Assembly: GCF_008520305.1 (NCBI RefSeq)
Contig: NZ_ML703256.1
Span: forward strand, 120,815-184,814
Source of the DNA: Mesorhizobium sp. SARCC-RB16n
GTDB taxonomy: Bacteria; Pseudomonadota; Alphaproteobacteria; Rhizobiales; Rhizobiaceae
Length of the DNA stretch: 64,000 nucleotides
Direction: 5' to 3'
Shown: positions 46,988 to 63,279 of the stretch, in pieces
Layout of the letters: each line of letters starts with the position of its first letter
Numbering within the stretch: position 1 is the first letter of the stretch
Program-made: the position numbers and the translations under genes
The notes under the pieces: generated by a model
Seen by the model: the letters and a program-made list of their open reading frames with translations, nothing else
The model's database searches: none
What the model was told of the DNA's origin: nothing

Positions 46988-48544
46988 TCAAGACAGCAGG
47001 ATTTTCCGGCGAGCGAAGGTCTCGGCGATCGCGAGAACCGCGGCGTGTATAGGTCCCGCGGTGAGGCTGGGCATGATCGACGCGTCAACGACAAAGAGAT
47101 TGTCGAGCGCCTTGAGCCGTAGATCCGCATCGACGACGGCGTTCGGGTCCTTGCCCATCCTGCAGGTGCCACAGGGATGGTGGTGTGTGATGACCGACTG
47201 CGCGATGAAGTCGTCCATTTCAGCCGCACTGTTCAGGCTGCCTGGTAGGAGCTCGCGCTCTCGCCAGCCGGCGAGTTCATCTCGATGTCCGATTGTCCGG
47301 GCTGCCTCCAGCGCCTGGCGAAACAGCGCCCGATCCCGACCGGTTTGCAAGTACGCGGGGTCGATGATCAATCGATCGTCGAGTTCCGGCCCGCTTATGC
47401 GCACGCTGCCGCGGCTCGTCGGATGGGTGATCCCGAACAGCAACGAATATGCAGTGCCGGCGGCAGGCGCCTGAAAGCGTTCGGACACGATCGGCGCGAT
47501 GCCGCAACCAACGACAATTTCGGGCTGAGCGGCACCGGTGAACCCGTCGGCGCGCATGTAGGCCATCGATTCCGAGTGCTGGAGGCGCGATGGCGGAACG
47601 GGCTTGCGGGCCGCATAAAGGTTGCCTGCACCAAGCAGGTGATCCTGAAGGTTTCCGCCGACTTCCGGCATATCGATCAGGCAGCCGACGCCCGCGGCGT
47701 CGAGCACATCGCGCGGACCGATGCCCGAGCGCATCAGCAAAGCCGGGCTTTCCAGCGCGCCGGCGCAAAGCACGATTTGATCCGCAAGGATTTGGACCGG
47801 ACCCTGCTGCCCCACGACCTCGAGGCTGCGGACCTGATTGCCCTCCAGCTTGAGCCGCCGCACCCGCGATCCCATGAGAATGGTCAGGTTCTTGCGGCTT
47901 CGAACAGCCGGCGTCAGCCAGGCGTCGGCCGCCGTGACCCGCCGCCCGTCTCGAATGTTCAACGAGTTCGGAGTGACGCCGATCATCTGTCCACTGTTGT
48001 GACCTTCAAGACGCGGCAGGCCGAGGGAAGCGCCGGCTTCGATGAAGGCGCGTGCGACCGGACTTACCTCGTCGGCTGGCAGATGCACCGGCATCGGCCC
48101 GCCCTTGCCGTAAAGGCCGTTGCCACCGAGCGGGTGATCTTCGATCGCCTGAAACGCGGGCAGCAATTCATCCCAGCTCCATCTATTATCGCCGATCGCG
48201 TCGACCCATGCCTGGAAGTCCAGGGGATGGCCACGCATGTAGCCCATCGCGTGCAGGCAACTCGAGCCGCCGATCAACCGCCCGCGCGCCCAATGATGTG
48301 GCCGGCCCGCGGTTCCGGCTTGCAGCTCCGTGCGATAGTCCCAATCGTAGCTGCGCCCTTGAAGCGCCGGCCAGGCGGCGGGGTTCCAGATGTCGGGGTC
48401 CGCCGCCTCTTCGCCTGCTTCGATCAGCAAGACGCTGCGGGTCTGATCCTCGCTCAGTCGCGCTGCAAGCAAAGTGCCAGCCGAGCCGCCGCCGACGATG
48501 ACGATATCGGCACTCGGTTCGCGCTCAACAGCCGCCTTGGTCAT
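46988..48544 (-). CDS. Pyridoxine 4-oxidase (GMC FAD oxidoreductase)
   Basis: FAD-dependent oxidase converting pyridoxine to pyridoxal (EC 1.1.3.12), first step of vitamin B6 degradation. 518 aa from ATG 48544 (GGAG 6 bp upstream); ATG 48562 adds six residues. The dinucleotide site is DIVIVGGGSAGTLLAARLSE, and the GMC signatures are GRLIGGSSCLHAMGYMRGH and GALESPALLMRSGIG. The active-site His454 and His456 (ITHHHPCGTCRMG) and Pro498 correspond, with a +6 offset, to His460, His462 and Pro504 that I recall for the M. loti enzyme (mll6785). It is on the minus strand beside the GntR gene, as in M. loti. GMC enzymes are hard to tell apart, so context carries weight. Confidence 0.88.
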   Translation of the reverse strand: MTKAAVEREPSADIVIVGGGSAGTLLAARLSEDQTRSVLLIEAGEEAADPDIWNPAAWPALQGRSYDWDYRTELQAGTAGRPHHWARGRLIGGSSCLHAMGYMRGHPLDFQAWVDAIGDNRWSWDELLPAFQAIEDHPLGGNGLYGKGGPMPVHLPADEVSPVARAFIEAGASLGLPRLEGHNSGQMIGVTPNSLNIRDGRRVTAADAWLTPAVRSRKNLTILMGSRVRRLKLEGNQVRSLEVVGQQGPVQILADQIVLCAGALESPALLMRSGIGPRDVLDAAGVGCLIDMPEVGGNLQDHLLGAGNLYAARKPVPPSRLQHSESMAYMRADGFTGAAQPEIVVGCGIAPIVSERFQAPAAGTAYSLLFGITHPTSRGSVRISGPELDDRLIIDPAYLQTGRDRALFRQALEAARTIGHRDELAGWRERELLPGSLNSAAEMDDFIAQSVITHHHPCGTCRMGKDPNAVVDADLRLKALDNLFVVDASIMPSLTAGPIHAAVLAIAETFARRKILLS

Positions 48545-48705
48545 CGCCACTCCATATTGCATATGCTGGCTTCGGTCGCGGGCATGTCCGGCGCTAACAG
48601 GGCAAAACCCCGGCGTGCCGATCTCAGTCGGGTGGATATCTGGTCCGATACGCCATGAAGGATTTCGAGACTTCAGACGGGGGGATAACCGCCCGCCGAG
48701 AAAAC

Positions 48706-49392
48706 CTAAATCGCGCTGTCCATGGACATCTTCGCTGCCGCTTTCGCCTTCAACAGGTGATTTTTCGAGGCTTTGCGGGCGGCCTTCTCGTCGCCGGCGG
48801 CGATGGATTCGAATATCTCCTTCATCTCCGCCAGGCTGCTTTGCGCTCTGCCTTCCAATGACATCGACCGTCCTCGAAAGAAGCTGATCCTGGCAACCAG
48901 GCCACGATGGACTTCCTCGAGGATCGGATTCCCGCAATTGGCGAGTATGATCGAATAGAAGTCCGCGGCGGTCATGACCTGCGCCAGGCTGTCATTGCTG
49001 GATGCCGCCTCCTCGAATGCCGAGAGAGATTTCTCGAGTTCACGCAACTGCTCCGGGGAAATTCTCGACGCGCATCGTCCCGCCGCCTCGACTTCCAGCA
49101 ACTCTCGAACCTCGTAGATGGCTGTTGCCACCTCCCACGAAAGTGACGGTATCGACGGTCCGCGGTTGGGTACGATCTCGATCAGGCGCTCGGCCTCGAG
49201 ACTGCGCAAAGCCTCCCTTAGCGAAGGGCGACTGATGCCGAGTTGCGTGCACAGCTGACTCTCGATGAGGCGGCTTCCCGGCTGGAACAATCCGGAGAAG
49301 ATGGCGAGCCGTAACTTGTCGACGGTCTCCCGTTGCACCGTCCGTGGCGAAATTCGCAAATTCAAATCTGGAGGCATCTCTAAACGTCTCAT
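48706..49392 (-). CDS. GntR/FadR-family regulator of the vitamin B6 degradation cluster
   Basis: 228 aa. A winged HTH at ~residues 15-75 (VDKLRLAIFSGLFQPGSRLI, LCTQLGISRPSLREALRSLE) is followed by an all-helical FCD effector domain (VRELLEVEAAGRCASRISPE, ending with the KNHLLKAKAAAKM helix). FadR-type regulators usually repress catabolic genes until their substrate binds. The gene lies between pyridoxine 4-oxidase and the divergent degradation operon, with palindromic sites in the intergenic region. The ATG at 49392 is chosen; TTG 49407 and ATG 49377 are alternatives. The effector is probably a B6 vitamer or pathway intermediate (inference). Confidence 0.88.
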   Translation of the reverse strand: MRRLEMPPDLNLRISPRTVQRETVDKLRLAIFSGLFQPGSRLIESQLCTQLGISRPSLREALRSLEAERLIEIVPNRGPSIPSLSWEVATAIYEVRELLEVEAAGRCASRISPEQLRELEKSLSAFEEAASSNDSLAQVMTAADFYSIILANCGNPILEEVHRGLVARISFFRGRSMSLEGRAQSSLAEMKEIFESIAAGDEKAARKASKNHLLKAKAAAKMSMDSAI

Positions 49393-49445
49393 GGGTTTGA
49401 GTCGCAATCTTCGGAAGCAGCATACGCCACGCCGTAAAAAATAGC

Positions 49446-49467
49446 CAGATTGTCAAATCTGAAGATT
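49446..49467. promoter_or_regulatory. Candidate GntR operator: overlapping AGATT/AATCT palindromes
   Basis: CAGATT-GTCA-AATCTG (49446-49461) is a perfect 6+6 palindrome. Its right arm is reused in a second one, AATCT-GA-AGATT (49456-49467). A longer dyad, ATTGTC-N25-GACAAT (49449-49485), overlaps both. All lie in the 150-bp gap between the GntR gene and the AAMS hydrolase gene, where a divergent regulator would bind. Confidence 0.6.
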
Positions 49468-49548
49468 GCAAGAATGTCAGACAATCCGCTTGACGTCCCC
49501 GTGGCTGTATGATCCTTTTGAAGGAGACGGGCAGTGATGGTGAGGATC

Positions 49549-50385
49549 ATGGACATGACGGCGGAGATAAGCTGCGACCAATTTGGCTCGCGACGCGTCG
49601 ATGCCGATCGCATTGCCTTGAATGTGCGCGAGGGGGGTAACGGCCCGTTGATGCTGTTTTTCCATGGCATAACGTCCAACTCCGCGGTCTTCACGCCGTT
49701 GATGGCTCGGCTCTCGGATCGCTTCACGACCGTGGCCGTCGACCAGAGAGGGCATGGCCTCAGCGACAAGCCGGAAAGCGGCTACCAGGCGAATGACTAT
49801 GCTGACGACATTGCCGGCCTGATCCGCACGCTCGACCGCGGCCCTGCCATCCTCATCGGACATTCGCTTGGCGCGAGAAATTCCGTCACGGCCGCAATGA
49901 GATATCCGGAACTGGTGCGGTCGGTCGTCGCAATCGACTTCACGCCTTACATCGAGACCGAGGCGCTTGATGCGCTGGAAGCCCGCGTGAACGCGGGAAG
50001 CCAGCTTTTCGAGGGTATCGATGCCGTCGAATCCTATCTTGCCGGCCGTTATCCAAACATTCCCGCCGCCGCCATCAGGATCAGGGCCGAAAGCGCCTAT
50101 CATCGGGTCGACGGCGGCCTGCGGCCATTGGCGTCGCCCGCAGCCATGGCCCAGACAGCCAAGGGCCTGCGATCGGACCTGGTGCCTGCCTATCGGGACG
50201 TGACGAAGCCCGTTCTCATCGTTCGGGGTGAGGCGAGCAAATTGGTTTCGGCGGCGGCGCTGGCAAAAACATGCCGGCTGCGGCCCGATCTGCCCGTGGT
50301 CGTCGTCCCGGGCGCCGACCATTACGTCAACGAGGTAGCTCCCGAGATCACGCTGAAAGCCATCACGAATTTCATCGACGCCTGA
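49549..50385 (+). CDS. (E)-2-(acetamidomethylene)succinate hydrolase (AAMS hydrolase)
   Basis: Alpha/beta hydrolase cleaving AAMS to succinic semialdehyde, acetate, ammonia and CO2, the last step of B6 degradation (EC 3.5.1.29). Counting from ATG 49549 (278 aa), the triad Ser106 (IGHSLGARNS), Asp130 (VVAIDFTPYIE) and His258 (GADHYVNE) falls at the numbers I recall for the M. loti enzyme (mlr6787). The oxyanion loop is LFFHGITSNS. GTG 49534 and ATG 49537 have a better ribosome site (AAGGAG) and may be the true start, adding 4-5 residues. First gene of the plus-strand degradation operon. Confidence 0.93.
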   Translation: MDMTAEISCDQFGSRRVDADRIALNVREGGNGPLMLFFHGITSNSAVFTPLMARLSDRFTTVAVDQRGHGLSDKPESGYQANDYADDIAGLIRTLDRGPAILIGHSLGARNSVTAAMRYPELVRSVVAIDFTPYIETEALDALEARVNAGSQLFEGIDAVESYLAGRYPNIPAAAIRIRAESAYHRVDGGLRPLASPAAMAQTAKGLRSDLVPAYRDVTKPVLIVRGEASKLVSAAALAKTCRLRPDLPVVVVPGADHYVNEVAPEITLKAITNFIDA

Positions 50386-50430
50386 CGGCCCCAGCACGCC
50401 GTCTTCTTGTACGCAGCATCAGGATAGAAA

Positions 50431-51570
50431 ATGGCCAATGTAAACAAAACCCAGGGTAAGGCGCGCCGTGCCGAGGTCGCTGGCGGCGGCTTTGCCGGCC
50501 TGACAGCCGCCATCGCTCTGAGGCAGAACGGTTGGGACGTCAGGCTGCACGAAAAGAGCTCGGAGCTCCGGGCATTCGGCGCGGGTATCTATCTCTGGCA
50601 CAATGGCCTTCGCGTGCTCGAAGGACTGGGCACCCTGGATGATGTTCTCCAGGGCTCCCATACGCCTCCGACCTACGAGACCTGGATGCATAACAAGTCC
50701 GTTTCCAAGGAGACGTTCAACGGTCTTCCCTGGCGCATCATGACCCGGAGCCACCTGCACGATGCCCTGGTCAACCGCGCCCGTGCGCTGGGTGTCGACA
50801 TATCAGTCAACTCCGAAGCGGTCGCCGCCGATCCGGAAGGCCGCCTGACTCTTCAGACCGGAGAGGTTCTCGAGGCCGACTTGATCGTCGGTGCCGACGG
50901 CGTTGGCTCCAAGGTCAGGGATTCCATCGGCTTCAAACAGGACCGGTGGGTTTCGAAAGATGGTCTCATCCGGCTGATCGTGCCTCGCAAGAAGAAGGAA
51001 CTCGGTTACGGCGAGTGGGACAACACCATAGACATGTGGAATTTCTGGCCGCGCGTTCAACGAATACTCTACTCGCCCTGCAACGAAAATGAGCTCTATC
51101 TCGGCCTCATGGCTCCAGCCGCCGATCCCCGCGGGTCGCAGGTTCCGATAGACCTCGATGTTTGGGTCGAGATGTTCCCCTTTCTCGAACCGTGCCTGAT
51201 CGAGGCGGCGAAGCTGAAAACCGCAAGGTACGACAAGTACGAGACGACCAAGCTGGATAGCTGGACAAGAGGCAAGGTCGCCCTTGTGGGCGATGCCGCG
51301 CATGCGATGTGCCCGGCTCTTGCTCAGGGCGCTGGTTGCGCGATGGTCAATGCGTTTAGCCTGTCGCAAGACCTGGAGGCGGGCTCTTCGGTCGAAGATG
51401 CACTCGTCGCGTGGGAGAAGCGCATTCGCCCCATCACCGATCGCTGCCAGGCCCTGTCCGGCGACTATGCGGCGAACCGCTCGCTGTCGAAGGGGAACAT
51501 GTTCACGCCGGCGGCCCTGGAAGCAGCCCGCTACGACCCGCTGCGCCGCGTCTACTCATGGCCGCAGTAG
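50431..51570 (+). CDS. 2-Methyl-3-hydroxypyridine-5-carboxylate oxygenase (MHPCO)
   Basis: Flavoprotein aromatic hydroxylase that opens the pyridine ring of MHPC, using NAD(P)H and O2, to give AAMS. 379 aa, identical in length to the M. loti enzyme (mlr6788) and nearly identical to its sequence as I remember it. The FAD site is EVAGGGFAGLTAAIALRQNG, and the second motif is DLIVGADGVGSKVRD. The flavin/ribityl motif is GDAAHAMCPALAQGAG. The substrate-binding residues Arg211 and Tyr223 are present (VQRILYSPCNENELYL). It is unusual in combining hydroxylation with ring cleavage. ATG with AGGATAG upstream, 45 bp after the hydrolase. Confidence 0.96.
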   Translation: MANVNKTQGKARRAEVAGGGFAGLTAAIALRQNGWDVRLHEKSSELRAFGAGIYLWHNGLRVLEGLGTLDDVLQGSHTPPTYETWMHNKSVSKETFNGLPWRIMTRSHLHDALVNRARALGVDISVNSEAVAADPEGRLTLQTGEVLEADLIVGADGVGSKVRDSIGFKQDRWVSKDGLIRLIVPRKKKELGYGEWDNTIDMWNFWPRVQRILYSPCNENELYLGLMAPAADPRGSQVPIDLDVWVEMFPFLEPCLIEAAKLKTARYDKYETTKLDSWTRGKVALVGDAAHAMCPALAQGAGCAMVNAFSLSQDLEAGSSVEDALVAWEKRIRPITDRCQALSGDYAANRSLSKGNMFTPAALEAARYDPLRRVYSWPQ

Positions 51571-51637
51571 CGCCGGACAAGCCGGTCAACGAATTAATCG
51601 GCGCGCGCGCAAGCAGCGCTCCCTTCAGGAGATAAAG

Positions 51638-52228
51638 ATGAACTATTCCAGTGAAGTCGAACGGGACTACGATGTCAGGGGTTGGTACGCCTCGGTCCAG
51701 GAAAGCCGGCATGACGGCGGCCAGCCTGGCGACACCCTCGTCAAAGTCGCGACAGGCGTCGTCATACGCAATCCGTTCGCCGGAAAGTTCGTCGCGGAAT
51801 TGTCCGAGCTGACGGATCCGAGCTCAGCCATCGGTCATGCGCTCGGTGAGCGGGCCGTGGCGCTGCTCGGCAACAGGCCGGTCGAAAGCTATGGCAAGGG
51901 CGGTATCGCGGGTACATCAGGCGAACAGGAACATGTCGTCGCCTGCATCACCACGGTGTTCGGAGATCCGCTGCGGCAGCAGGTCGGGGGCGGCAAGGCC
52001 TGGATTTCGTCGGTCAGCAAGGTCGCCGCCGCCGGCACATCCATCGATATCCCGCTTGCCCACAAGGACGAGCTCTACATCCGTTCCCACTATGATGCCG
52101 TCACGTTTTCCGTGCCGGACGGCCCACGCCCCGATGAGCTTTTGATCTGCGTCGCCGTCGCATCGGGTCCGCGCGTGCATCAGCGCGTCGGCGGCAAAAC
52201 CGTCGCCGACCTCAAGGCCGGTGTCTAG
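51638..52228 (+). CDS. DUF1185 / 'amino acid synthesis' family protein
   Basis: 196 aa from the ATG at 51638 with AGGAG 6 bp upstream; a longer frame overlapping the oxygenase gene is rejected. It belongs to PF06684, a small family named from genome context only. Conserved-looking blocks are VVIRNPFAGKFVAELSELTD, GKGGIAGTSGEQEHVVACIT and IDIPLAHKDELYIRSHYDAV. Cytoplasmic, with no known catalytic motif. It sits between the oxygenase and the PEBP-like gene in the B6 operon and is retained at the equivalent position in M. loti as far as I recall. No step of the pathway is assigned to it. Possible roles are isomerisation or hydrolysis of ring-opened intermediates. Confidence 0.85.
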   Translation: MNYSSEVERDYDVRGWYASVQESRHDGGQPGDTLVKVATGVVIRNPFAGKFVAELSELTDPSSAIGHALGERAVALLGNRPVESYGKGGIAGTSGEQEHVVACITTVFGDPLRQQVGGGKAWISSVSKVAAAGTSIDIPLAHKDELYIRSHYDAVTFSVPDGPRPDELLICVAVASGPRVHQRVGGKTVADLKAGV

Positions 52229-52258
52229 TTCGATCGAAATTGGCGAAGGACGAATTCC

Positions 52259-52717
52259 ATGCCCCTGAACATCAAGGACCTCAAGATCACTTCGGCGGAT
52301 TTCAAGCCGCTCGGGAAATTGCGCGACGAGCATGCCGGCGACAAGGGCAACGTATTGCCCAGGCTTACGGTCAGCGGCGTCCCGGCAGGCACGAAGGAGC
52401 TCGCGGTCATCTGCCATGATCCCGACGCGCCCTTGCCCAACGGCTTCACGCACTGGGTCGTCTACGGCATCGATCCGTCGACCACCGATCTTTCGGACGC
52501 GCAGGAAAAGTTTCGCGTCGGGCCCAACGGCGCCGGCGGCAAGCAGTATTACGGGCCTCAGCCGCCCGCTGGCCATGGAGAGCATCACTACTACTTCTGG
52601 GTCTATGCCCTGGACACGAAGGTCGAAGGGACACCCACCAGGGAGGAGTTCCTCCAGAAATATGCCGGAAACATCATCGAGCAAAATCGGATCGTCGGCA
52701 TCTACGAAAACAAGTGA
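52259..52717 (+). CDS. PEBP / YbhB-YbcL family protein
   Basis: 152 aa of the phosphatidylethanolamine-binding / Raf-kinase-inhibitor-like fold. The family anion-binding site is made by AVICHDPDAPLPNGFTHWVV and YYGPQPPAGHGEHHYYFWVY. No signal peptide, so it is cytoplasmic, like E. coli YbhB and unlike YbcL. It lies 30 bp after the DUF1185 gene and 72 bp before the decarboxylase, all on one strand. The known vitamin B6 enzymes do not include a PEBP protein; binding of an anionic pyridine carboxylate or phosphate is conceivable but unproven. Confidence 0.88.
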   Translation: MPLNIKDLKITSADFKPLGKLRDEHAGDKGNVLPRLTVSGVPAGTKELAVICHDPDAPLPNGFTHWVVYGIDPSTTDLSDAQEKFRVGPNGAGGKQYYGPQPPAGHGEHHYYFWVYALDTKVEGTPTREEFLQKYAGNIIEQNRIVGIYENK

Positions 52718-52789
52718 AATCCGCGGCCTCGGCGACCGATAACAAGAACAAAAATGGTCGCCATCGCCGCGCAATGGGAGAATTTGGAA

Positions 52790-53512
52790 ATGAAAGACAA
52801 CAGCCCGGCGCGCCAGACGGTCTTCGAAGAGCTGGTCACAGCGACGAAGATCCTTCTGAACGAAGGCATTCTGGACACGTTCGGACACATCAGCGCCCGT
52901 GACCCCGACGATCCCGAAAGCTTCTTTCTGGCCCAGAAGCTTGCTCCGAGCCTTATAACCGTCGGTGACATCCAGCGTTTCAATCTCGACGGCGAGACGT
53001 CGGATAACAGACCCTCCTATCTTGAGCGCTACATCCACAGCGAGATCTACAAGGCGCGGCCCGACGTTCAGTGTGTGCTCCACACCCATTCTCCGGCCGT
53101 CCTGCCGTACTGCTTCGTCGATACGCCGCTTCGGCCGGTCACCCACATGGGAGCTTTCATCGGCGAGTCAGTCCCGGTCTACGAGATTCGCGACAAGAAT
53201 GGCGACGAGACGGATCTCTTCGGCGGCAGCTCCGGGGTCTGCGCTGATATCGCCGAAAGTCTCGGCAACCAGACCGTGGTCCTCATGGCACGGCATGGCG
53301 TCGTCAATGTCGGCAACTCCGTGCGGGAGGTCGTCTTCCGCGCCTTCTATCTCGAGCAGGAAGCGGCAGCGCTCACGGCCGGCCTGCAGATCGGCAATAT
53401 CAAATATCTGTCGCCGGGCGAGATAAAGACGGCGGGAAAACTCGTCGGTGCCCAGATCGATCGAGGATGGAATCACTGGTCGCAGCGTCTGAGAGAGGCC
53501 GGCCTGGCCTAG
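52790..53512 (+). CDS. 3-Hydroxy-2-methylpyridine-4,5-dicarboxylate 4-decarboxylase (HMPDC decarboxylase)
   Basis: Class II aldolase/adducin-fold decarboxylase that removes the 4-carboxylate of HMPDC to give MHPC (EC 4.1.1.51). 240 aa from the ATG at 52790 (GGGAG upstream); the earlier ATG at 52754 is less likely. Metal ligands are in [10 protein letters not shown] and [11 protein letters not shown], with the acid in [11 protein letters not shown]. The sequence closely matches M. loti mlr6791 as I remember it ([19 protein letters not shown]). Activity is thought to need a divalent metal, Mn in the M. loti protein. A hairpin follows the stop. Confidence 0.94.
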
Positions 53513-53533
53513 TGCCGGCCGCCTTGAGGAATA

Positions 53534-53569
53534 CCTGGTCCATCCGGGTCTGGGCCGGGATGGTCCAGG
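53534..53569 (+). repeat. Long hairpin between the decarboxylase and 4-pyridoxate dehydrogenase genes
   Basis: A 12-bp inverted repeat (CCTGGTCCATCC / GGATGGTCCAGG) with one mismatch and a 12-nt loop lies in the 102-bp gap. It is followed by CTCAGTTTC rather than a T-tract, so an RNA-processing or partial-attenuation element is more likely than a full terminator. Confidence 0.6.
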
Positions 53570-53614
53570 CTCAGTTTCAATAGTTCCCTGGCGCAGGAGC
53601 GCCGGATCAAGGCA

Positions 53615-55264
53615 ATGAAACGCACCATGCCGCACGCGGAAAGTTACGACTACATCATCGTTGGGGCCGGATCGGCCGGCTGCGTGCTGGCCAACCGGTT
53701 GAGCGCTGACCCGGCATGTTCGGTGCTGTTGCTCGAGGCCGGCGGCTGGGACCGCGACCCCATGATCCACATACCGCTTGGCTGGGGAAAAATCCTGACC
53801 GAGCGCCGCCACGACTGGATGTATTTCTGCGAGCCGGAGGACAATGTCGGCGGACGCAGGGTCGAGTGCGCCCGCGGCAAGGTGATCGGCGGGTCGTCGT
53901 CGACCAACGCCATGGCCTATGTGCGGGGAAATCGCGGCGATTACGACCGTTGGGCGGCCAGCGGGCTCCAAGACTGGTCGTACGAGAAGGTCCTGCCTTA
54001 TTTCCGGAAGCAGGAAAGCTGGGAAGGGGGCGCGAACCACTTTCGTGGTGGCAAGGGTCCGGTCAGCACCCAGTTGTGCCGCTACAAGGACACGCTGATC
54101 GACGCCTTCGCGCAAGCCAGCGTGGAGGCAGGGTATCCACAAACGGACGACTACAATGGTGAGCGGCAGGAAGGATTCGGTCGCCTCCAGATGACGATTT
54201 CGAAAGGTCGGCGCAGCTCGACCGCGTCCGCCTATCTGCGGCCGGTCTTGAAGCGGCCCAATTTGACCGTCCTGACCGGAGCGACGGCGACGAAGATCAC
54301 CCTGGAGGGCAGGCGCGCCACCGGGGTGGTTGTGAACCATGGCGGCGGCGAACGGACGGTCGTCGCCCGCAAGGAGGTCCTGCTCTCGGGCGGCGTCATC
54401 AACACGCCGCAACTCCTGATGCTGTCCGGCATCGGGGCGCCGGAGGAGCTCGCGACGCACGGTATCCAGACGCGGGTCGACCTGCCGGCGGTCGGCAAGA
54501 ACCTGCAGGATCACGTCTCGGTCATCCTCATGTACCGACGCCGGGCTCCGGGCGGCCCTTTCCTTCGCAACATGCGTGCCGATCGGATCGGGTTGGATTT
54601 CGCCAAGACCTACTTCACGGGACGGGGTTTTTCCGGCGATGTCCCCGGCGGGGTTGTCGCCTTCCTGAAAAGCGGTCCGGCGCGGCCGTTGCCGGATGTG
54701 CAACTGCTGTTCACGGCGGCTCCGCTCGCCGCGTGGCCGTACCTCAAGCCGTTCAAGGCGCCGTTCCCGGACGGTTTCGCCACGCGGATCGTGGCGACGC
54801 AGCCTGAAAGCCGGGGTGAGGTGAAACTGGCCTCGGCCGATCCTCTCGCGGCACCGCTGATCCACCAGAATTTCCTCGCCTCGCCGAAGGACTGGGAGTC
54901 CCTTCGCGCCGGTTTCCGGGTGGCCAGGGATCTCGCGGCGCAGCCTTCCATGCGGCCCTTTATCGAGGCGGAGTTCTTTCCCGGCCCGAATTGCCAGAGC
55001 GACGACGAGATCGACGAGCATATCCGCAAGACCTCGATCACCGTGCACCATCCGGCAGGGACCTGCCGGATGGGCGCCGACGCGGCCTCCGTCGTCGACC
55101 CGCAATTGCGACTTCGCGGCGTCGACGGGCTGAGGGTGGTGGACGCGTCCGTCATGCCCGACCTGGTCTGCGGAAACATCAACGCGGCGGTCATCATGAT
55201 TGCCGAGAAGGCCGCCGACCTCATCGCGGCATCAAAAGCAGCAACGGAAAGCAGGGCAGCGTGA
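53615..55264 (+). CDS. 4-Pyridoxate (4-pyridoxic acid) dehydrogenase, GMC family
   Basis: FAD enzyme oxidising the 5-hydroxymethyl group of 4-pyridoxate to an aldehyde (5-formyl-3-hydroxy-2-methylpyridine-4-carboxylate). 549 aa. FAD site [23 protein letters not shown] signatures [19 protein letters not shown] and [16 protein letters not shown]; active-site His478-His479 ([13 protein letters not shown]). In M. loti (mlr6792) the enzyme is membrane-associated and passes electrons to an acceptor other than O2. The gene lies between decarboxylase and FHMPC dehydrogenase, as in M. loti. Its TGA overlaps the next ATG by one base. Start ATG 53615; ATG 53627 is possible. Confidence 0.9.
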
Positions 55265-56193
55265 TGATCCAGCGTATCGCCATCATCGGTCTGGGTACGA
55301 TGGGACCAGGCATGGCCGCCCGGCTCGCCAGGGGTGGCTTGCAGGTGACCGCCTACGATGTTGCCCCGGCAGCTATCGAGCGCGCAGGGTCAATGCTGAG
55401 CACGGCCGGGTCCGTGCTCGATGCCCTGGGTATCGCGGCCCCGCCGGCGGGTGCCGGAACGGTTCGCTTCACGGATGACATCGGCGACGCGGTATCCGGT
55501 GCCGATCTCGTCATCGAGAACGTTCCTGAAAACATCTCGATCAAGGCCGATGTCTATCGCACGATCGACAGCCTCATAGCATCGGACACGATCGTCGCAT
55601 CCGACACCTCGGGCATCCCGATCACCAAGCTGCAAGCGCATATCTCGCATCCCGAGCGGATGGTGGGCATGCACTGGTCGAACCCGCCGCACATCATCCC
55701 GATGATCGAGGTGATCGCCGGCGAGAAGACGGCGCCGCAGACCGTGGCTGTTATCCGCGACCTGATCCGCTCGATCGGCCTCTTGCCGGTGGTGGTGAAG
55801 AAGGACGTTCCGGGCTTCGTCGAAAACCGCGTGCTCTATGCGCTGCTGCGCGAGGCGGTCGATCTTGTCGAGCGCGGTGTCATCGAGCCGGAAGATCTCG
55901 ACACCTGCGTTTCCTGGGGCATCGGCTACAAGATCGCCGTGGTCGGGCCGATGGCGCTGCTGGATATGGCGGGCCTCGATATCTACAAGTCCGTCTCGTC
56001 CTTCCTCAACGCCGATCTCTCCAATCGCGACGACGTTGCGCCGATGGTGCTGGAAAAGACGAACGCGTCGAAGCTCGGCATCAAGTCGGGGGAGGGCATG
56101 TTCTCCTACACGCCCGAGCAGATAAAGGCGCTGCAAGGCGAACGCGCGCGCAAGCTCGTCGCGGTGCGACGCATCCTGGAGGGCCGGGAGTAG
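55264..56193 (+). CDS. FHMPC dehydrogenase (3-hydroxyacyl-CoA dehydrogenase fold)
   Basis: NAD-dependent oxidation of 5-formyl-3-hydroxy-2-methylpyridine-4-carboxylate to the 4,5-dicarboxylate, the step before HMPDC decarboxylase. 309 aa. Rossmann motif IAIIGLGTMGPGMAARLARG, then ADLVIENVPENISIKADVYR and SDTSGIPITKL. His137 (ERMVGMHWSNPPH) is at the number I recall as catalytic in M. loti mlr6793. An aldehyde dehydrogenase built on a hydroxyacyl-CoA dehydrogenase fold is unusual, and general annotation would call it 3-hydroxybutyryl-CoA dehydrogenase. Start ATG 55264, coupled by TGATG to the gene before. Confidence 0.93.
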   Translation: MIQRIAIIGLGTMGPGMAARLARGGLQVTAYDVAPAAIERAGSMLSTAGSVLDALGIAAPPAGAGTVRFTDDIGDAVSGADLVIENVPENISIKADVYRTIDSLIASDTIVASDTSGIPITKLQAHISHPERMVGMHWSNPPHIIPMIEVIAGEKTAPQTVAVIRDLIRSIGLLPVVVKKDVPGFVENRVLYALLREAVDLVERGVIEPEDLDTCVSWGIGYKIAVVGPMALLDMAGLDIYKSVSSFLNADLSNRDDVAPMVLEKTNASKLGIKSGEGMFSYTPEQIKALQGERARKLVAVRRILEGRE

Positions 56194-56254
56194 CCAATGA
56201 CACATCGTGCTCACAAGGCCGGTCGGATTGGGGCACCGCATGGAGGGCCAAGCC

Positions 56255-57085
56255 ATGCGTGTTGAGACCATTCGGGCAGCCGGCGGCCGGCCGGCCCATA
56301 TCCGCCACGACGACCTGATCTCCGCCAAGGGCGTTTCGGTGGTCATGGCCAGGCAACTGGTTCTGCAGAATATAGATCTGTCGGTACCGAAGGGATCGTT
56401 TGTTTCTCTCATCGGTCCTTCCGGTTGCGGCAAGAGCACCTTGCTCAAGGTTCTGGCCGGGCTTGTAAATCCGACAAGCGGCAGCGTTTCGATCGCCGGG
56501 CTTTCGCCGGTCGAGGCGGCGCGCAAGCGCATGATCGGCCTCGTCTTCCAGGACGCCAACCTGCTTCCCTGGAAGAATGCGGTCGACAATGCATCCATGC
56601 TGCTCGGCATCGCCGACAAGTCATTGTCGCGCACGGATTTGCGGGCACGCGGACAGGAGATGCTTGAACTGGTGGGGCTTGGCGACAGCGCCCACAAGCG
56701 TCCAAACGAATTGTCGGGCGGCATGCGCCAGCGCGTCGCCATCGCGCGGGCCTTGGCGCTCGATCCCGCGGTGCTGCTGATGGACGAGCCGTTCGGCGCG
56801 CTCGATGCCATTACCCGCGATTCGATGGGTCAGTCGCTGCTGGAGATCTGGCAGCGCACCGGCAAGACCATCGTTCTTGTCACCCACTCCATCGACGAGG
56901 CCATTCACCTGTCCCGCCATGTCCATGTGCTGGGGATCAAGCCCGGCCGGATCACCGAGAGCCTCGACATTGGTCTGCCCTATCCACGCGACCTGTCGGT
57001 GACGGAAGATCCGGAGTTCGTCAGGCTGGTGGTTCAACTGCGCACGATGCTGCGCGCCAGCCACCAACCGGGAGGCGCGTCATGA
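56255..57085 (+). CDS. ABC transporter ATP-binding protein, NMT1/taurine-type importer
   Basis: 276 aa from the ATG at 56255 (GGAGGG 8 bp upstream). Walker A SLIGPSGCGKSTLLKVLAGL, Q-loop LVFQDANLLPWKNAV, signature LSGGMRQRVAIARAL, Walker B VLLMDEPFGALDAITRD, and switch His in VTHSIDEAIHLS. It belongs to the SsuB/TauB/ThiZ class that serves sulfonate, nitrate and pyrimidine importers. The ATGA overlap with the permease and the position right after the B6 enzymes suggest import of a B6 vitamer or pyridine acid (inference). Confidence 0.9.
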   Translation: MRVETIRAAGGRPAHIRHDDLISAKGVSVVMARQLVLQNIDLSVPKGSFVSLIGPSGCGKSTLLKVLAGLVNPTSGSVSIAGLSPVEAARKRMIGLVFQDANLLPWKNAVDNASMLLGIADKSLSRTDLRARGQEMLELVGLGDSAHKRPNELSGGMRQRVAIARALALDPAVLLMDEPFGALDAITRDSMGQSLLEIWQRTGKTIVLVTHSIDEAIHLSRHVHVLGIKPGRITESLDIGLPYPRDLSVTEDPEFVRLVVQLRTMLRASHQPGGAS

Positions 57086-57897
57086 GCGATCAACCTGTCA
57101 CAAATGTCCCTGACTCACGGCTTGGCTCAAGCTGGGTGGCCGCGACCGGCAGCTGGCTCCCGGCGGTCATACTTCTGCTGGCGACGATCGTCGTGTGGGA
57201 AGCCGTGGTGCGGATTTTCGCCATCTCCGCCTTCATTATTCCCGCCCCGTCCGAGATCGCGCAGTCGCTGGTCGCGCAATGGGCAACGCTGATGCAGGCG
57301 ACATTGGTGACGGCAGGCGAGATCCTGTTCGGGTTCCTTGTCTCCGTCGTGGTCGGCGTTGCCATTGCGCTGGTCATTGTGCGCTTCGACTGGCTGGGGC
57401 GAGCGCTTTATCCGCTGGTGGTGCTGTTCCAGAACGTACCCAAAGTGGCGCTGGCGCCGATCTTCATTCTCTGGTTCGGCTATGGGCTCGCGCCCAAGAT
57501 CGGCCTGATCCTGGTCATCGCCTTCTTCCCGGTGACGTTGTCGATGCTGGCCGGCATGCAGTCGGTCGACCGCTCGCTGCTGTCGTTGATGAATTCGGTC
57601 GGCGCGAGCCCGACGCAGATCCTGTTCAGGATCCGCGTTCCGCATTCGCTGCCGAACCTGATGGCGGGGACCAAGATCGCGGCCACGCTGAGCGTGATCG
57701 GCGCCATCGTCGGCGAATTCGCCGGGGCCTCGGACGGGCTGGGCTACGTCATCCAGTTCGCCTCGACCCAGCTCGACACTGCGCTGGTCTTCGCGGCGCT
57801 GCTGCTCGTCTCCGTGCTCGGCATAGCCTTCTACTACGCGGCCGAAATCCTCGAACGCATCGTGGTGCCTTGGGCACCCAAATTCAGCCAGGCCTAG
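57082..57897 (+). CDS. ABC transporter permease, NMT1/taurine-type importer
   Basis: 271-aa inner-membrane permease with about six helices; the first is LPAVILLLATIVVWEAVVRI. The EAA loop is LMNSVGASPTQILFRIRVPH, followed by GTKIAATLSVIGAIVGEFAG, typical of SsuC/ThiX/TauC permeases. It overlaps the ATPase gene by 4 bp and is followed after 37 bp by the binding-protein gene. A single permease gene implies a homodimer in the membrane. Confidence 0.9.
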   Translation: MSDQPVTNVPDSRLGSSWVAATGSWLPAVILLLATIVVWEAVVRIFAISAFIIPAPSEIAQSLVAQWATLMQATLVTAGEILFGFLVSVVVGVAIALVIVRFDWLGRALYPLVVLFQNVPKVALAPIFILWFGYGLAPKIGLILVIAFFPVTLSMLAGMQSVDRSLLSLMNSVGASPTQILFRIRVPHSLPNLMAGTKIAATLSVIGAIVGEFAGASDGLGYVIQFASTQLDTALVFAALLLVSVLGIAFYYAAEILERIVVPWAPKFSQA

Positions 57898-57934
57898 GCC
57901 TCTCGATCAACCACCGACAATAAAGGGAACAAAA

Positions 57935-58945
57935 ATGCTGAGACGCTCACTTATCAAGGTAGCCACGCTTGCGGCGTTTGCCGGCGCCCTTGGCTTCCCC
58001 GGCATGGCGCTGGCGGCGGACAGGGTCACTGTCCAGCTCGACTGGGTGGTGCGCGGCAACCACGCCATGTTCTTCGTCGGCAAGGAAAAAGGCTTCTTCG
58101 CCAAGAACGACATCGACGTCGCCGAAATCCGCAAGGGTTCGGGTTCGCCGGATGCTATGCGGTTGGTGGGCAATGAGAACGCGGATTTCGGTTTCGGCGA
58201 TCTCCCCACGCTCGCCGTCGCGCGCTCGCAGAACGTTCCCGTGGTGGCGGTGGCCGCCGTCAACCAGCACTCGCCGCTGGCGATCATGTCGCTCGCCAAG
58301 ACGGTGAAGCTCACCAAGCCGGCTGATCTCAAGGGACTGACCATCGGCATTCATCCGGCGGGCTCGACCTACATCTTCTTCAAGGGCTTCCTGGCGGCCA
58401 ATGGCCTGACCGAGAAGGACATGACGCTGAACAGCGTCTCGCCGCCCTATGAAAGCTATCTGCTTCTCGGCCGGGTCCAGACGGTGGTCGGCTATGTCGA
58501 CGCCGAGGTTCCCGAACTGGAGGCCAAGGCAGGCGGTCCCGGGTCGCTCAGCATCATGATGGGCGCGGACCATGGCTGGAAGGCTTATGGCTCCGGCCTG
58601 TTCACTTCGGAGAAGATGATCAAGGACAAGCCGGACGTCGTCGCCCGCTTCGTCAAGGCATACAGGGAGGCCTTCGACTACGTGGTGGCGCACCCCGAAG
58701 AGGCCGCCGAGATCACGGCCAAGGCCGCCCCTGGTTACGCGGACAAGAAGGATGTGCTGCTGGCGCAGATCAACGCCGATATCGCGTCGACCTTCACCAG
58801 CCCGGACACCAAGGAACACGGCCTCGGCTGGATGACGAAGACGCAGTGGGAGGAAACGCTGAAGACGCTCACCGATCAGGGCGTGCTCAAGGTGGCCCTG
58901 TCGGCGGGCGATGTCTTCACCGACACGTTCCTGGCCAACAAGTAA
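57935..58945 (+). CDS. NMT1/ThiY-type periplasmic substrate-binding protein
   Basis: 336 aa. A signal peptide (LRRSLIKVATLAAFAGALGF to MALAA) is followed by the NMT1/ThiY opening VQLDWVVRGNHAMFFVGKEK and GFGDLPTLAVARSQNVPVVA. Family members bind pyrimidine precursors of thiamine or other small heterocycles. Together with its place directly behind the B6-degradation enzymes, this makes pyridoxine, pyridoxal, pyridoxamine or 4-pyridoxate the likely ligand, though it has not been shown. An AAGGGAAC ribosome site precedes the ATG. Confidence 0.88.
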   Translation: MLRRSLIKVATLAAFAGALGFPGMALAADRVTVQLDWVVRGNHAMFFVGKEKGFFAKNDIDVAEIRKGSGSPDAMRLVGNENADFGFGDLPTLAVARSQNVPVVAVAAVNQHSPLAIMSLAKTVKLTKPADLKGLTIGIHPAGSTYIFFKGFLAANGLTEKDMTLNSVSPPYESYLLLGRVQTVVGYVDAEVPELEAKAGGPGSLSIMMGADHGWKAYGSGLFTSEKMIKDKPDVVARFVKAYREAFDYVVAHPEEAAEITAKAAPGYADKKDVLLAQINADIASTFTSPDTKEHGLGWMTKTQWEETLKTLTDQGVLKVALSAGDVFTDTFLANK

Positions 58946-58983: not shown

Positions 58984-59409
58984 CTACCGGCAGACCAGAC
59001 TGTCCTGCTCCAGGCCGCAAGACAAGGTGCGCTCGCCTTTCGCCGCATCGGCACGGTCGAGAGTGATCTGCACGCGGGTGGCATATGCGCGGCCCGACAG
59101 ACCGCACCATAGCCGCTCGACCGGCAGGTTCTCGTGTTTGTCGTTGAGGATGGTGAAGGTGGCGGTCTTGGGGTCGAACCAGAGTTCGACGCGAGCGCTC
59201 TTGCCCGGTTCTATCGTCGCGATCCCTTCTGAATACCAGTGGGCAAAGTCGGCGTTGCAGGACACGCCTTCCTTGCCCGCATTCGAAATCGTCAATGGCA
59301 CCATGGCGAGCCCCTCAGTGCCCTTGCGGACAATCACCTGGTGCAACTCAACCGCGTCGGCGAGGGATGTGAACGCCAACATCACGGGGAGGACATAACG
59401 GATTTTCAC
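58984..59409 (-). CDS. Small secreted protein of unknown function
   Basis: 141 aa on the minus strand, opposite to the flanking transporter operons. Residues 1-19 form a signal peptide (YVLPVMLAFTSLADA). The mature part is beta-rich with an immunoglobulin-like feel (VPLTISNAGKEGVSCNADFA; GIATIEPGKSARVELWFDP) and has Cys residues in SCNADF, LWCGLSGR, LSCGLEQ and the last-but-one position, fitting two disulfides. Not recognised. The only gene in this 15-kb stretch that is not plus strand apart from the oxidase/regulator pair. Confidence 0.7.
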   Translation of the reverse strand: MKIRYVLPVMLAFTSLADAVELHQVIVRKGTEGLAMVPLTISNAGKEGVSCNADFAHWYSEGIATIEPGKSARVELWFDPKTATFTILNDKHENLPVERLWCGLSGRAYATRVQITLDRADAAKGERTLSCGLEQDSLVCR

Positions 59410-59507
59410 TTTGCCTGAGCTCCATGGGTAGTTTTCTCAGGCAGTCTATCTCGCTCATGCGCAATAACAACAAAAATATGATTGGGAAATCAAACAGAGA
59501 GGGTAAC

Positions 59508-60536
59508 ATGTTAAAGATCCTTAAGAGCAGCGTAAGTGCATTTATACTGTGTGGCGTCTTGATGGGCGGCGCGTTTGCCGGCGAAATCAAGTCGATCGCC
59601 ATACTGACGCCCGAAGAAGGCACGGACTATGGCTGGAACCAGCAGGGCATCGACGCCGCCAAGGCAGCCGGCAAGGCAGCCGGTGTCGAGGTGGTCGTGG
59701 CCCAGGGTCTCGGCTATGGCGATGTCCGTCCGACACTGCGCGAGCTCGCGTCCGACGGCGCCAGCCTGCTGATCGCCCACGCCAGCGGCTACAACACCTC
59801 GGCGCCCGAAATCGCCAAGGAACTGAAGGTTCCGGTGGCGATCGTCGACACGCCGAACGGTCTTGAGAAGGGCCTCGTCGCCGACTACACACTGAGCGGT
59901 CATCAGGGCGCCTATCTGGCCGGCCGTCTCGCCGCCAAGATGTCGCGCTCGAAATCTGTCGGCATCGTCGTCTCCGGCGAACCGCCATCGTGGAACTCGC
60001 AGTCGGCGGCGTTCGCGCAGGGCGTGAAGGCGGAGAACCCGGACGTCAAGATCACCTATGCGGTGATCGGGCCGGCCGCCTACAGTGATGCCGCCGGCGG
60101 CAAGCGCGTCACCGAAAGCGTTATCGCCTCGGGCGCCGACATCATTTTCGGCCAGGGCAACGGCTCCAGTTTCGGCATGCTGCAGGCGGTCGAGAGGACC
60201 AAGGCGGCTGACGGTGGTAAGGTCTATTTCATCGACGTCATCGGCGACAAGTCGCCGATCGACAAGGGCTTCCTGCTGTCGTCGGTGGTGTGGAACATCG
60301 AACCGGTCTACGCTGCGATGATCGCCGACCTGAAGGCCGATACGTTCGGTACCAAGCACTATTCGATCGGCCTCAAGGACGATTCGGTGAAGCTGCTGAA
60401 GACCGCCGCCATCCCCGACAAGGTCTGGGGTGAAATCCAGGCGCTGCGCGAGGACGTCATTTCCGGCAAGATCAAGGTCGATCCGGTCTATGACGCGGCC
60501 GCCGTCAGGGCGCTGATGACAAGCGTCGCCCAGTAA
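59508..60536 (+). CDS. BMP-family (nucleoside-type) substrate-binding protein
   Basis: 342 aa from the ATG at 59508 (GAGAGGG upstream); the longer frame from 59424 has a non-signal leader. Signal peptide SSVSAFILCGVLMGGAFA. The mature region opens KSIAILTPEEGTDYGWNQQG and contains GLGYGDVRPTLRELASDGAS and GADIIFGQGNGSSFGMLQAV, the BMP/PnrA pattern (basic membrane protein family, binding purine nucleosides or similar heterocycles). It leads an importer operon (binding protein, double ATPase, two permeases). A strong hairpin separates it from the ATPase gene, probably raising its relative expression. Confidence 0.9.
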   Translation: MLKILKSSVSAFILCGVLMGGAFAGEIKSIAILTPEEGTDYGWNQQGIDAAKAAGKAAGVEVVVAQGLGYGDVRPTLRELASDGASLLIAHASGYNTSAPEIAKELKVPVAIVDTPNGLEKGLVADYTLSGHQGAYLAGRLAAKMSRSKSVGIVVSGEPPSWNSQSAAFAQGVKAENPDVKITYAVIGPAAYSDAAGGKRVTESVIASGADIIFGQGNGSSFGMLQAVERTKAADGGKVYFIDVIGDKSPIDKGFLLSSVVWNIEPVYAAMIADLKADTFGTKHYSIGLKDDSVKLLKTAAIPDKVWGEIQALREDVISGKIKVDPVYDAAAVRALMTSVAQ

Positions 60537-60555
60537 GGCGATCAAAAGTCGGCTG

Positions 60556-60613: not shown

Positions 60614-62182
60614 ATGAGCAATCTTTCTTCATCGCCCGTCGACAGCCGCGACATCGTCGCGCTTGAAGGCGTGACCAAACGCTTTCCCGGCATTGTCGCC
60701 AACGACAGCATCGACCTGTCGATCCGCCCTGGCGAGGTGCATGTGCTGCTCGGTGAGAACGGCGCGGGAAAATCCACCTTGATCGGCATGCTGTCCGGCC
60801 TGCAGCAGCCGGACGAGGGGCGCATCCTTGTCGACGGCAGACCGACGCCGATCACGTCGCCGCGCCATGCGCTGGCGCTTGGCATCGGAACGGTGTTCCA
60901 GCACATGATGCTGGTGCCCACCCTGACGGTCGCCGAGAACCTGCTTCTTGGCGGGTCCTGGTGGCAGCGCCCCAGGACTGATGAGCTCGAGGCCCGCGTG
61001 GCCGAGATCACCGGGAGCCTCGGCATCACGGTGAAACTGCATGCCAAGGTTTCGGAACTTTCGCTGGGTGAGCAGCAGCAGGTCGAAATCCTGCGCGCCA
61101 TGGTGCGCAACAGCCGGCTGCTGATCCTCGACGAATCCACCTCGATGCTGACGCCGAAGGGCATCGAGGAACTTGGTGCGCTGATGCGCCGCCTCGTCGA
61201 GCAAGGATTGGCGATCGTCTTCATCACCCACAAGCTCAAGGAGGCAGCCGCCTTCGGCGACCGCATCTCGGTTCTCAAGCTTGGCCGCAAGGTTAGAGAG
61301 ATACCGCCCGAGCGGTTTGCCGCGCTCGGCGAACAGGAGATCATTTCCGAGATCGTGGAGTTGATGTTCGGCAAGCAGAAGGACGATCCCGAAGCGGTCG
61401 AACGCCCGGCCCGCGCAGTCGATGCGCAAGCCGCGCCCCTGCTTCAGGTCGCGGGTCTCACGGTCGCGCCGACCGACAACGCGCCCGGCCTGTCGTCGAT
61501 CTCCTTCGACATCCGTCCAGGCGAGATACTCGGCATCGCGGGAATTGATGGCAACGGCCAGAAGCAACTGGCTGAGGCCTTGGCCGGCCAGCGCGTGGCG
61601 ACAGGCGGCTTGGTCCGGCTGGCGGGCACCGCCATCGAGGCCCTGAGCGTCGGCGAACGCCGCCAGCGCGGCCTTCGCTACCTGACCGACGACCGGCTGG
61701 GCGAAGGTACGGTGGGCATGTTCCCAGTCTCCATCAACTTCTTCCTCAAGCAGGTCGGGGCGGCGCCCTTCTGGCGCAGCGGCGTCGAGCAACGCGCCGA
61801 GATCGACAGGCGCGCCGCCGAGCTCGTGCGCGAGTACGATGTGCGCACACCAAGCCTGAAGACGCCCGTTGCGCGGCTTTCGGGGGGCAACATCCAGAAG
61901 GTGCTGCTGGCGCGGGAACTGGCCGAAGGCGCGAAGGTGGTGATCTTCAACAAGCCAACCTATGGGCTCGATCTCGCCAATACGCTGGCCTCGCGCCAGC
62001 GCATCCGCGACACGGCGGCGCGTGGCCTCGCCGTGCTGTTGATCTCCACCGACCTCGAGGAACTGCTGAGCATGTGCGATCGTATCGCCGTCATTGCCAA
62101 TGGCTCGCTGGTCGGCACCGTCGCGAATGCCGACGACGCCCGCACCAGGGTCGGCCGCCTGATGATCGGACTTGCCGCATGA
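60614..62182 (+). CDS. Nucleoside/sugar-type ABC transporter, double ATP-binding protein
   Basis: 522 aa with two fused nucleotide-binding domains (RbsA/NupA class). Domain 1: Walker A LLGENGAGKSTLIGMLSGL, signature LSLGEQQQVEILRAM, Walker B LLILDESTSMLTPKG, switch His VFITHKLKEAA. Domain 2 has the degenerate P-loop GIDGNGQKQLAEALAG, signature LSGGNIQKVLLARELAEG and Walker B VVIFNKPTYGLDLAN, as usual for the second half in this class. Two small deviations are DEST for the common DEPT and FNKPTYG for xxQPTRG. Its stop overlaps the permease start (ATGA). Confidence 0.9.
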   Translation: MSNLSSSPVDSRDIVALEGVTKRFPGIVANDSIDLSIRPGEVHVLLGENGAGKSTLIGMLSGLQQPDEGRILVDGRPTPITSPRHALALGIGTVFQHMMLVPTLTVAENLLLGGSWWQRPRTDELEARVAEITGSLGITVKLHAKVSELSLGEQQQVEILRAMVRNSRLLILDESTSMLTPKGIEELGALMRRLVEQGLAIVFITHKLKEAAAFGDRISVLKLGRKVREIPPERFAALGEQEIISEIVELMFGKQKDDPEAVERPARAVDAQAAPLLQVAGLTVAPTDNAPGLSSISFDIRPGEILGIAGIDGNGQKQLAEALAGQRVATGGLVRLAGTAIEALSVGERRQRGLRYLTDDRLGEGTVGMFPVSINFFLKQVGAAPFWRSGVEQRAEIDRRAAELVREYDVRTPSLKTPVARLSGGNIQKVLLARELAEGAKVVIFNKPTYGLDLANTLASRQRIRDTAARGLAVLLISTDLEELLSMCDRIAVIANGSLVGTVANADDARTRVGRLMIGLAA

Positions 62183-63276: not shown

Positions 63277-63279
63277 GGC

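Follow-up and report, generated by a model that had tools for sequence, protein, structure and literature searches.

A vitamin B6 degradation cluster of Mesorhizobium, its candidate importers and relatives with a putative third ring-opening route

The right-hand part of a 64,000-nucleotide stretch of Mesorhizobium sp. SARCC-RB16n (contig NZ_ML703256.1, positions 120,815 to 184,814; the whole stretch is called the window) raises the question of whether its genes form a pathway for the breakdown of vitamin B6, what the adjoining importers carry, and whether the pathway keeps together in other bacteria. We conclude that it is very likely a Mesorhizobium-type catabolic cluster, which draws carbon and nitrogen from vitamin B6 along the Mesorhizobium loti route and appears to be built of segments that each have an importer. 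Comparison with relatives leads us to a further reading that we consider likely, namely a third, undescribed route of B6 ring opening, in which a gene cassette replaces the decarboxylase, oxygenase, hydrolase, DUF1185 and PEBP genes, the pathway consisting of exchangeable importer-bearing segments of which some bacteria use only one, as 4-pyridoxate eaters or MHPC eaters.

An earlier note on this DNA had proposed a nearly complete B6 degradation cluster, and the cluster is real: all seven genes that it named (oxidase, GntR/FCD regulator, 2-(acetamidomethylene)succinate (AAMS) hydrolase, MHPC oxygenase, HMPDC decarboxylase, 4-pyridoxate dehydrogenase and FHMPC dehydrogenase) lie within 46988-56193 (Table 1), and the nine core genes are 86-96% identical to those of the M. 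loti CJ3sym locus L014 (L and G numbers are our handles for loci and genomes). The best PDB chains found by phmmer are the named enzymes for five of the seven genes, the top chains of the oxidase being 3t37 ('probable dehydrogenase') and 4ha6 (pyridoxine 4-oxidase). The FHMPC dehydrogenase passes its NCBIfam cut-off, and the 4-pyridoxate dehydrogenase was named by synteny and identity to the L014 protein because it has no solved orthologue. The residues singled out in the note all stand at the positions it gave: Arg211 and Tyr223 of the oxygenase and His137 of the FHMPC dehydrogenase, whose key role we take over from it, as well as Ser106, Asp130 and His258 of the hydrolase, which are named for that enzyme in the part of the M. 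loti account cited here (PMC3538738). Its expectation that routine annotation would miss the pathway holds in part. The oxidase, oxygenase, hydrolase and decarboxylase attain no family cut-off specific to them and the 4-pyridoxate dehydrogenase scores above that of a choline-dehydrogenase subfamily (620.7 vs. 605), but NCBIfam now names the FHMPC dehydrogenase, 4-pyridoxolactonase, pyridoxamine-pyruvate aminotransferase (PPAT) and pyridoxal 4-dehydrogenase. The oxidase open reading frame need not extend to 48937, an ATG at 48544 or 48562 being its likely start. Two extra genes beyond the seven, for a DUF1185 and a PEBP protein, lie within the operon.

Enzyme identities are assigned here by homology, and the chemistry is that established in M. 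loti. In the predicted pathway, pyridoxine would be oxidised by the oxidase at 46988, and pyridoxal dehydrogenase, lactonase and PPAT, whose genes are predicted to lie immediately to the right of the window, would supply 4-pyridoxate, which would be taken on by 4-pyridoxate dehydrogenase and then FHMPC dehydrogenase. The decarboxylase would yield MHPC, the MHPC oxygenase would open the ring at C2-C3, and AAMS hydrolase would release acetate, CO2, ammonia and succinic semialdehyde. All enzymes named in the note are held in common with route I of M. loti MAFF303099 (Pseudomonas MA-1 type), whose genes presumably bear the locus numbers mll6785 and so on, and the comparison showed no difference among the enzymes. 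The window is a sound and ordinary member of this M. loti-type pathway. In the part of the M. loti account cited here, all B6 degradation genes of that organism are given as known, and the importers and the DUF1185 and PEBP genes of the window receive no mention (PMC3538738).

A scan with the MHPC oxygenase found 65 loci in named records, 55 of which have the full nine-gene core (groups of 28 and 24, plus L020, L030 and L065); the remaining ten comprise L059, the six lower-only loci described below and three contigs that are cut (L062, L067 and L068). Right flanks were fetched for 13 of the 65 loci, and in 11 of these flanks lactonase, PPAT and pyridoxal 4-dehydrogenase genes come after the second permease gene of a BMP-type importer. 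In the relative nearest by oxygenase, Mesorhizobium sp. ES1-4 (L004; right flank L069), matches to the three fall between 0.23 and 3.06 kb beyond the base to which window position 64000 aligns, and the earlier prediction that they sit just right of the window is thus borne out as far as relatives show. The same three proteins in L071 exceed their family cut-offs (491/325, 654/600 and 425/325 bits, respectively), and its PPAT and lactonase also match PDB 2z9u and 3aj3.

The swapped lower half came from surveys of further genomes. Among 394 genomes of the family of Pseudooceanicola genome G019, seven matched FHMPC_DH at E<=1e-120, six of them over the family cut-off (G181 just below, 495 vs. 500). 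Lactonase, PPAT, pyridoxal dehydrogenase, BMP and FHMPC dehydrogenase were matched in the six other than G019, and the fetched stretches of these six gave no match to the oxygenase, hydrolase, decarboxylase, DUF1185 or PEBP. Five of them have genes for a cupin dioxygenase, an LVIVD protein, RidA and a glutathione S-transferase (GST) between the 4-pyridoxate and FHMPC dehydrogenase genes, and the contig of the sixth, G291, ends after GST. Lactonase surveys around genome G159, of 385 genomes of its class and 398 of its phylum, gave six matches each in 11 distinct genomes: seven with the cassette, three with route I and one (G698) on a contig too short to tell, so the cassette is not rare beside the known route in these surveys. 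Leaving out G159, the centre of both draws, these counts are six, three and one (n = 10). In G698, whose over-cut-off 4-pyridoxolactonase lies on that short contig, two adjacent relatives of the oxygenase (41-42%) are found at C37:82444-84662.

The whole cassette is present in ten genomes (G159, G161, G269, G033, G181, G897, G575, G748, G573 and G482), for example at L091:4903-8225 (G161), L099:10938-14282 (G181) and L127 (G897). Their fetched stretches contain FHMPC dehydrogenase, lactonase and BMP in 10/10 cases, PPAT and pyridoxal dehydrogenase in 9/10 (the G573 stretch stops after the lactonase), and a 62-80% match to 4-pyridoxate dehydrogenase in seven, none being seen in the stretches of G748, G573 and G482. 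Genome searches of the ten and of G291 found neither an MHPC oxygenase at E<=1e-30 nor a decarboxylase match exceeding 40%. The clearest case is G897. Against the window or Phyllobacterium queries, identity is 91-97% for its lactonase, PPAT, pyridoxal dehydrogenase, BMP and NMT1 proteins, 85% for FHMPC dehydrogenase and 80% for 4-pyridoxate dehydrogenase, yet the lower segment is the cassette; its oxidase and regulator reach only 54% and 52% identity to the nearest queries. When 51 BMP binding proteins, including ten from cassette genomes, are placed on a tree, at least three changes between the two lower routes are required on branches with good support, and a supported set of 15 unites G897 with Mesorhizobium rows. 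A tree of 55 rows, in which the truncated G291 is taken as cassette-bearing, gives four changes.

The cassette cupin is nearest to gentisate and 5-aminosalicylate dioxygenases, matches their family over most of its length, and keeps HxH and WHNHG motifs that are invariant in ten copies. It differs from gentisate/5-aminosalicylate 1,2-dioxygenases in its linkage to B6 genes and in its scores, which lie below the gentisate 1,2-dioxygenase equivalog cut-off (203 vs. 442.1 bits) and below a second cut-off in the same comparison (203.9 vs. 650 bits). The mechanism of gentisate and salicylate dioxygenases serves as the model for the proposed cleavage. HMPDC has its hydroxyl ortho to a carboxylate, as in salicylate, and the cupin dioxygenase would cleave C3-C4 to give CH3-C(COOH)=N-CH=C(COOH)-CO-COOH. 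This product would be an N-substituted imine of pyruvate, RidA would hydrolyse the imine to pyruvate, and the GST and LVIVD proteins would process the remainder. Such chemistry requires that the 4-carboxylate be retained, which fits the lack of a close decarboxylase in the cassette genomes. The ten cassette RidA proteins have an invariant arginine in the presumed matching motif, which we take to be the essential arginine of RidA. RidA proteins hydrolyse 2-iminopropanoate, and their essential arginine is described in the cited part of PMC4433059.

We infer this route and its mechanism from gene content and from the analogy with salicylate; if the reading is true, the swapped lower segment predicts a third ring-opening chemistry beside the two catabolic B6 routes counted in the cited part of a 2013 account (PMC3538738). 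Among the matches listed in open-licence literature, mainly titles and abstract openings, none described another ring-opening route or any of the importers discussed here. The kinship of the cupin with gentisate and 5-aminosalicylate dioxygenases, together with the three genomes whose stretches show no 4-pyridoxate dehydrogenase, would also suit a cassette that is a passenger for an unrelated aromatic acid and opens no B6 ring. We hold this to be distinctly improbable, given that the cassette precedes the FHMPC dehydrogenase in 10/10 genomes across more than one overall gene order, that these genomes and G291 lack the MHPC oxygenase and decarboxylase matches named above, and that in G897 the swap lies within a Mesorhizobium-like cluster. 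A ring-opening cassette is the reading that we keep. On plasmids, the cassette cupin has one 36% match at E<=1e-60, and no relative of the FHMPC dehydrogenase was found at E<=1e-70.

What do the importers carry? The attached importer of the earlier note is present as a complete NMT1/THI5-like ABC system (NMT1-family binding protein, permease and ATPase); a second, of BMP/PnrA type (59508-64000), had gone unmentioned, and its Bmp-family binding protein scores 110.3 against a Pfam cut-off of 24.1 bits. The two probably have different substrates. In the 55 full-core loci, the slot after the FHMPC dehydrogenase holds an NMT1-type ABC importer in 29 and a TRAP transporter in 26, never both and never neither (TRAP was called from DctQ, DctM and DctP by Pfam in L044 and by tblastn in the other loci). 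BMP is found in 54 of the 55, the last (L030) being a cut locus whose contig has BMP. In Pseudooceanicola (L059/G019), TRAP is kept with the genes from 4-pyridoxate to ring opening; searches of the G019 genome for PPAT (E<=1e-60), lactonase (E<=1e-30) and the BMP binding protein (E<=1e-15) found none of them, and no oxidase is present at the locus, where alone it was sought. The locus looks like a natural cluster for 4-pyridoxate only. Martelella (L056/G018) has BMP, lactonase, PPAT and pyridoxal dehydrogenase grouped on the opposite side of the cluster, and TRAP stays with the FHMPC dehydrogenase. In L056, L057, L065 and L066, the BMP/upper block is equipped with a separate GntR-like gene and with a second operator.

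Linkage of this kind suggests that the B6 pathway is made of segments that each carry their own importer. BMP goes with the vitamer enzymes and the TRAP/NMT1 slot with the 4-pyridoxate enzymes, as in L059/G019, and the importers were therefore assigned accordingly: we lean towards import of B6 vitamers by the BMP-type ABC system and favour, with the same reserve, import of 4-pyridoxate by the NMT1-type ABC or TRAP transporter of the slot. Several points weigh against this. The assignments rest on linkage, and for 4-pyridoxate a single genome, G019, is decisive. Neither TRAP nor NMT1-ABC is present in the fetched stretch of five cassette genomes (G033, G575, G748, G573 and G482), so the slot importer looks dispensable, and no operator with at most one mismatch was found near BMP or NMT1 outside L056, L057, L065 and L066.

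Both importers might instead be ordinary pumps, for a thiamin precursor and for nucleosides, that stand beside B6 genes by chance; the NMT1 binding protein is similar to FAMP-binding 3ix1, the BMP protein is PnrA-like, and in the window the B6 operator was not seen before either importer. This is nevertheless rather improbable, as BMP accompanies the upper enzymes in two lower-pathway contexts (54/55 full-core loci and 10/10 cassette genomes), is placed with lactonase and PPAT in the rearranged Martelella cluster, and went undetected in the genomes that also gave no PPAT and lactonase (G002 having 29% matches only), and as ABC and TRAP systems are exchanged at one and the same slot. Uptake of pathway compounds hence remains our preferred reading. 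The known B6 importers PdxU, PdxU2/HmpT and P5PA resemble the candidates in that they import B6 vitamers or pyridoxal 5'-phosphate. They belong to other families (COG4720, COG1840) and are the sole three characterised according to the cited part of PMC9997740, which calls B6 vitamer transporters 'still mysterious in most species'. With B6 importers unknown in most bacteria by that source (PMC9997740), linkage names concrete binding proteins as candidates.

Six loci (L053, L055, L058, L060, L063 and L064) carry the lower part of the pathway only, with oxygenases of 77-82% and hydrolases of 50-62%; genes for the oxidase, decarboxylase, 4-pyridoxate dehydrogenase and FHMPC dehydrogenase are missing from these loci. 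Genome-wide, the best FHMPC_DH score is 232 vs. 500, no PPAT was found at E<=1e-60 and no lactonase over its cut-off (one 116-bit match in G002), and the best matches are 56% for 4-pyridoxate dehydrogenase and 49% (partial) for the decarboxylase; the oxidase was sought at the loci only. Five of the six share the order GntR-hydrolase-permease-permease-ATPase-binding protein-oxygenase. Their two-permease NMT1-type ABC importer, which we call A4, also occupies the same place inside the full cluster of Mesorhizobium 1M-11 (L020) and is found next to the Pseudohoeflea cluster (L079), where a GntR-like gene and an operator with two mismatches accompany it. The five A4-bearing loci have PEBP in 5/5 and a close DUF1185 in 4/5, so that DUF1185 keeps company with oxygenase and hydrolase in 4/6 lower-only loci and PEBP with oxygenase in 5/6; the two proteins look like part of the ring-opening segment. 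We read the lower-only operons as belonging to putative MHPC users with an MHPC importer, and from linkage it is fairly likely that A4 imports MHPC. Together with the 4-pyridoxate-only operon, they suggest a trade of B6 breakdown products in nature.

The evidence is not all on this side. L055 is a misfit, having no A4 and no operator and other transporters around it; four of the six genomes are metagenome-assembled; and the absence of genes from the locus says little for L053 and L063, because both end less than 1 kb after PEBP. The L055 genes (4378-14155, Bradyrhizobium sp. dw_411; oxygenase 80%, hydrolase 50%) lie between distant BMP-like and NMT1-like importers, and neither DUF1185 nor PEBP is present.

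Lower-only operons could also serve route II, the 5-pyridoxate route of Pseudomonas IA and Arthrobacter Cr-7, with oxygenase and hydrolase acting on 5-pyridoxate and A4 importing it. Route II, like route I, runs through ring opening and then hydrolysis of the open chain, and the route I upstream enzymes are missing from the lower-only genomes. The window and the cassette clusters differ from route II in carrying the enzymes of the 4-pyridoxate route instead. We consider the route II reading unlikely: the hydrolase is identical at 12/12 checked positions across 57 other copies (window included) and the six lower-only copies, the oxygenase is identical at 9/11 with small changes at 226 and 352, and A4 is found within a complete route I cluster, L020, as well. 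At three further internal positions of the oxygenase (130, 255 and 313) the lower-only copies differ from the others. Route II ends in a different product, 2-(hydroxymethyl)-4-oxobutanoate, according to the cited part of PMC3538738. Use of MHPC is retained as the more probable role of these operons.

The gap between the GntR and hydrolase genes contains the palindrome GAWTGTCWGACAATC, which recurs with at most two mismatches in 58/58 such gaps of relatives, followed within 11 bases by TTGAC in 57/58 (L064 being the exception). With at most one mismatch, the operator is present in 61 of the 65 loci, at 61 places no more than 200 bases ahead of the hydrolase gene; 20 shuffled loci did not contain it. 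The 64-kb window has four sites with at most two mismatches to the operator core where 1.26 are expected, so looser matches elsewhere can be chance. The ATTGTCNGACAAT site is probably where the GntR protein acts. In the ten cassette clusters, the fetched stretches gave no operator match at up to two mismatches; the operator is present in 5/6 lower-only operons (in L064 with two mismatches), and because it persists there the inducer may be MHPC or a later intermediate. The second operator of the rearranged clusters (L056:5234, L057:5114, L065:5127 and L066:5270) precedes a second GntR-like gene, about 80% identical to that of the window, by the oxidase/BMP block.

Table 1. Features of the B6 cluster and its importers in the window
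Feature	Position	Strand	Basis
Pyridoxine 4-oxidase, mll6785 type	46988..48544	-	PDB 3t37/4ha6, E 0
GntR/FCD regulator of operon	48706..49377	-	Pfam GntR + FCD
Putative operator core GAWTGTCWGACAATC, then TTGAC -35 box	49473..49485	+	Conserved in GntR-hydrolase gaps of relatives
AAMS hydrolase	49549..50385	+	PDB 3kxp, E 3.5e-155; residues checked
MHPC oxygenase, ring opening, route I	50431..51570	+	PDB 3alj, E 1.1e-254; residues checked
DUF1185/AA_synth protein, candidate ring-opening accessory	51638..52228	+	Pfam PF06684; relatives of PDB 2qtp/3byq
YbhB/PEBP-family protein, candidate ring-opening accessory	52259..52717	+	Pfam PF01161
HMPDC decarboxylase, class II aldolase fold	52754..53512 (alternative start 52790)	+	PDB 2z7b (Mlr6791), E 4.5e-149
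4-Pyridoxate dehydrogenase (GMC)	53615..55264	+	Synteny; 92% identity to M. loti CJ3sym L014
FHMPC dehydrogenase	55264..56193	+	NCBIfam FHMPC_DH NF042925, 569.7 vs. cut-off 500; PDB 4om8
NMT1-type ABC importer ATPase	56255..57085	+	ABC ATPase families, none shown above own cut-off
NMT1-type ABC importer permease	57082..57897	+	Open reading frame; matched beside binding protein in relatives
NMT1/THI5-like binding protein, candidate 4-pyridoxate importer	57935..58945	+	Pfam NMT1; distant to 3ix1 (FAMP-binding), E 2.7e-20
Small exported beta-sandwich protein beside BMP	58984..59409	-	No Pfam match; model pLDDT 85
BMP/PnrA-type binding protein, candidate B6-vitamer importer	59508..60536	+	Pfam Bmp
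BMP-type ABC importer ATPase	60614..62182	+	Open reading frame and synteny
BMP-type ABC importer permease 1	62179..63276	+	Open reading frame and synteny
BMP-type ABC importer permease 2, runs off window	63280..64000	+	Open reading frame open at end; 99% to L069

Further observations concern the surroundings of these genes. The small exported beta-sandwich protein stands beside BMP in 53/55 full-core loci and has four invariant cysteines and an AHW motif across 15 aligned copies. A TTGATT-N4-AATCAA palindrome, different from the GntR operator, precedes the BMP gene in 16/55 regions (in the window at about 59409-59508). In Microvirga (L030:8959-11896), the genes for the 4-pyridoxate and FHMPC dehydrogenases are separated by an insertion that encodes one more binding protein, of NMT1_3 type, and a membrane protein of DctM type.

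Four plasmid relatives of the MHPC oxygenase (40-43%; Terrarubrum, Prescottella, Variovorax and Rhodococcus) were considered as distant B6 clusters and set aside because the three neighbourhoods opened show no other core B6 gene by tblastn. On the Terrarubrum plasmid (L001:8457-13562), the 43% relative is accompanied by an alpha/beta hydrolase, an ABC importer and a VOC protein, genes that may belong to another pyridine route. Elsewhere, the 64-kb window has no tRNA and no Rfam match at gathering scores. It encodes a large YadA-type trimeric autotransporter (39446-44458), an IalB-family gene (46282-46929) and, in a row at 12243-18917, an amidoligase (DUF2126)/transglutaminase, a circularly permuted ATP-grasp protein with an Alpha-E domain, and a second transglutaminase.

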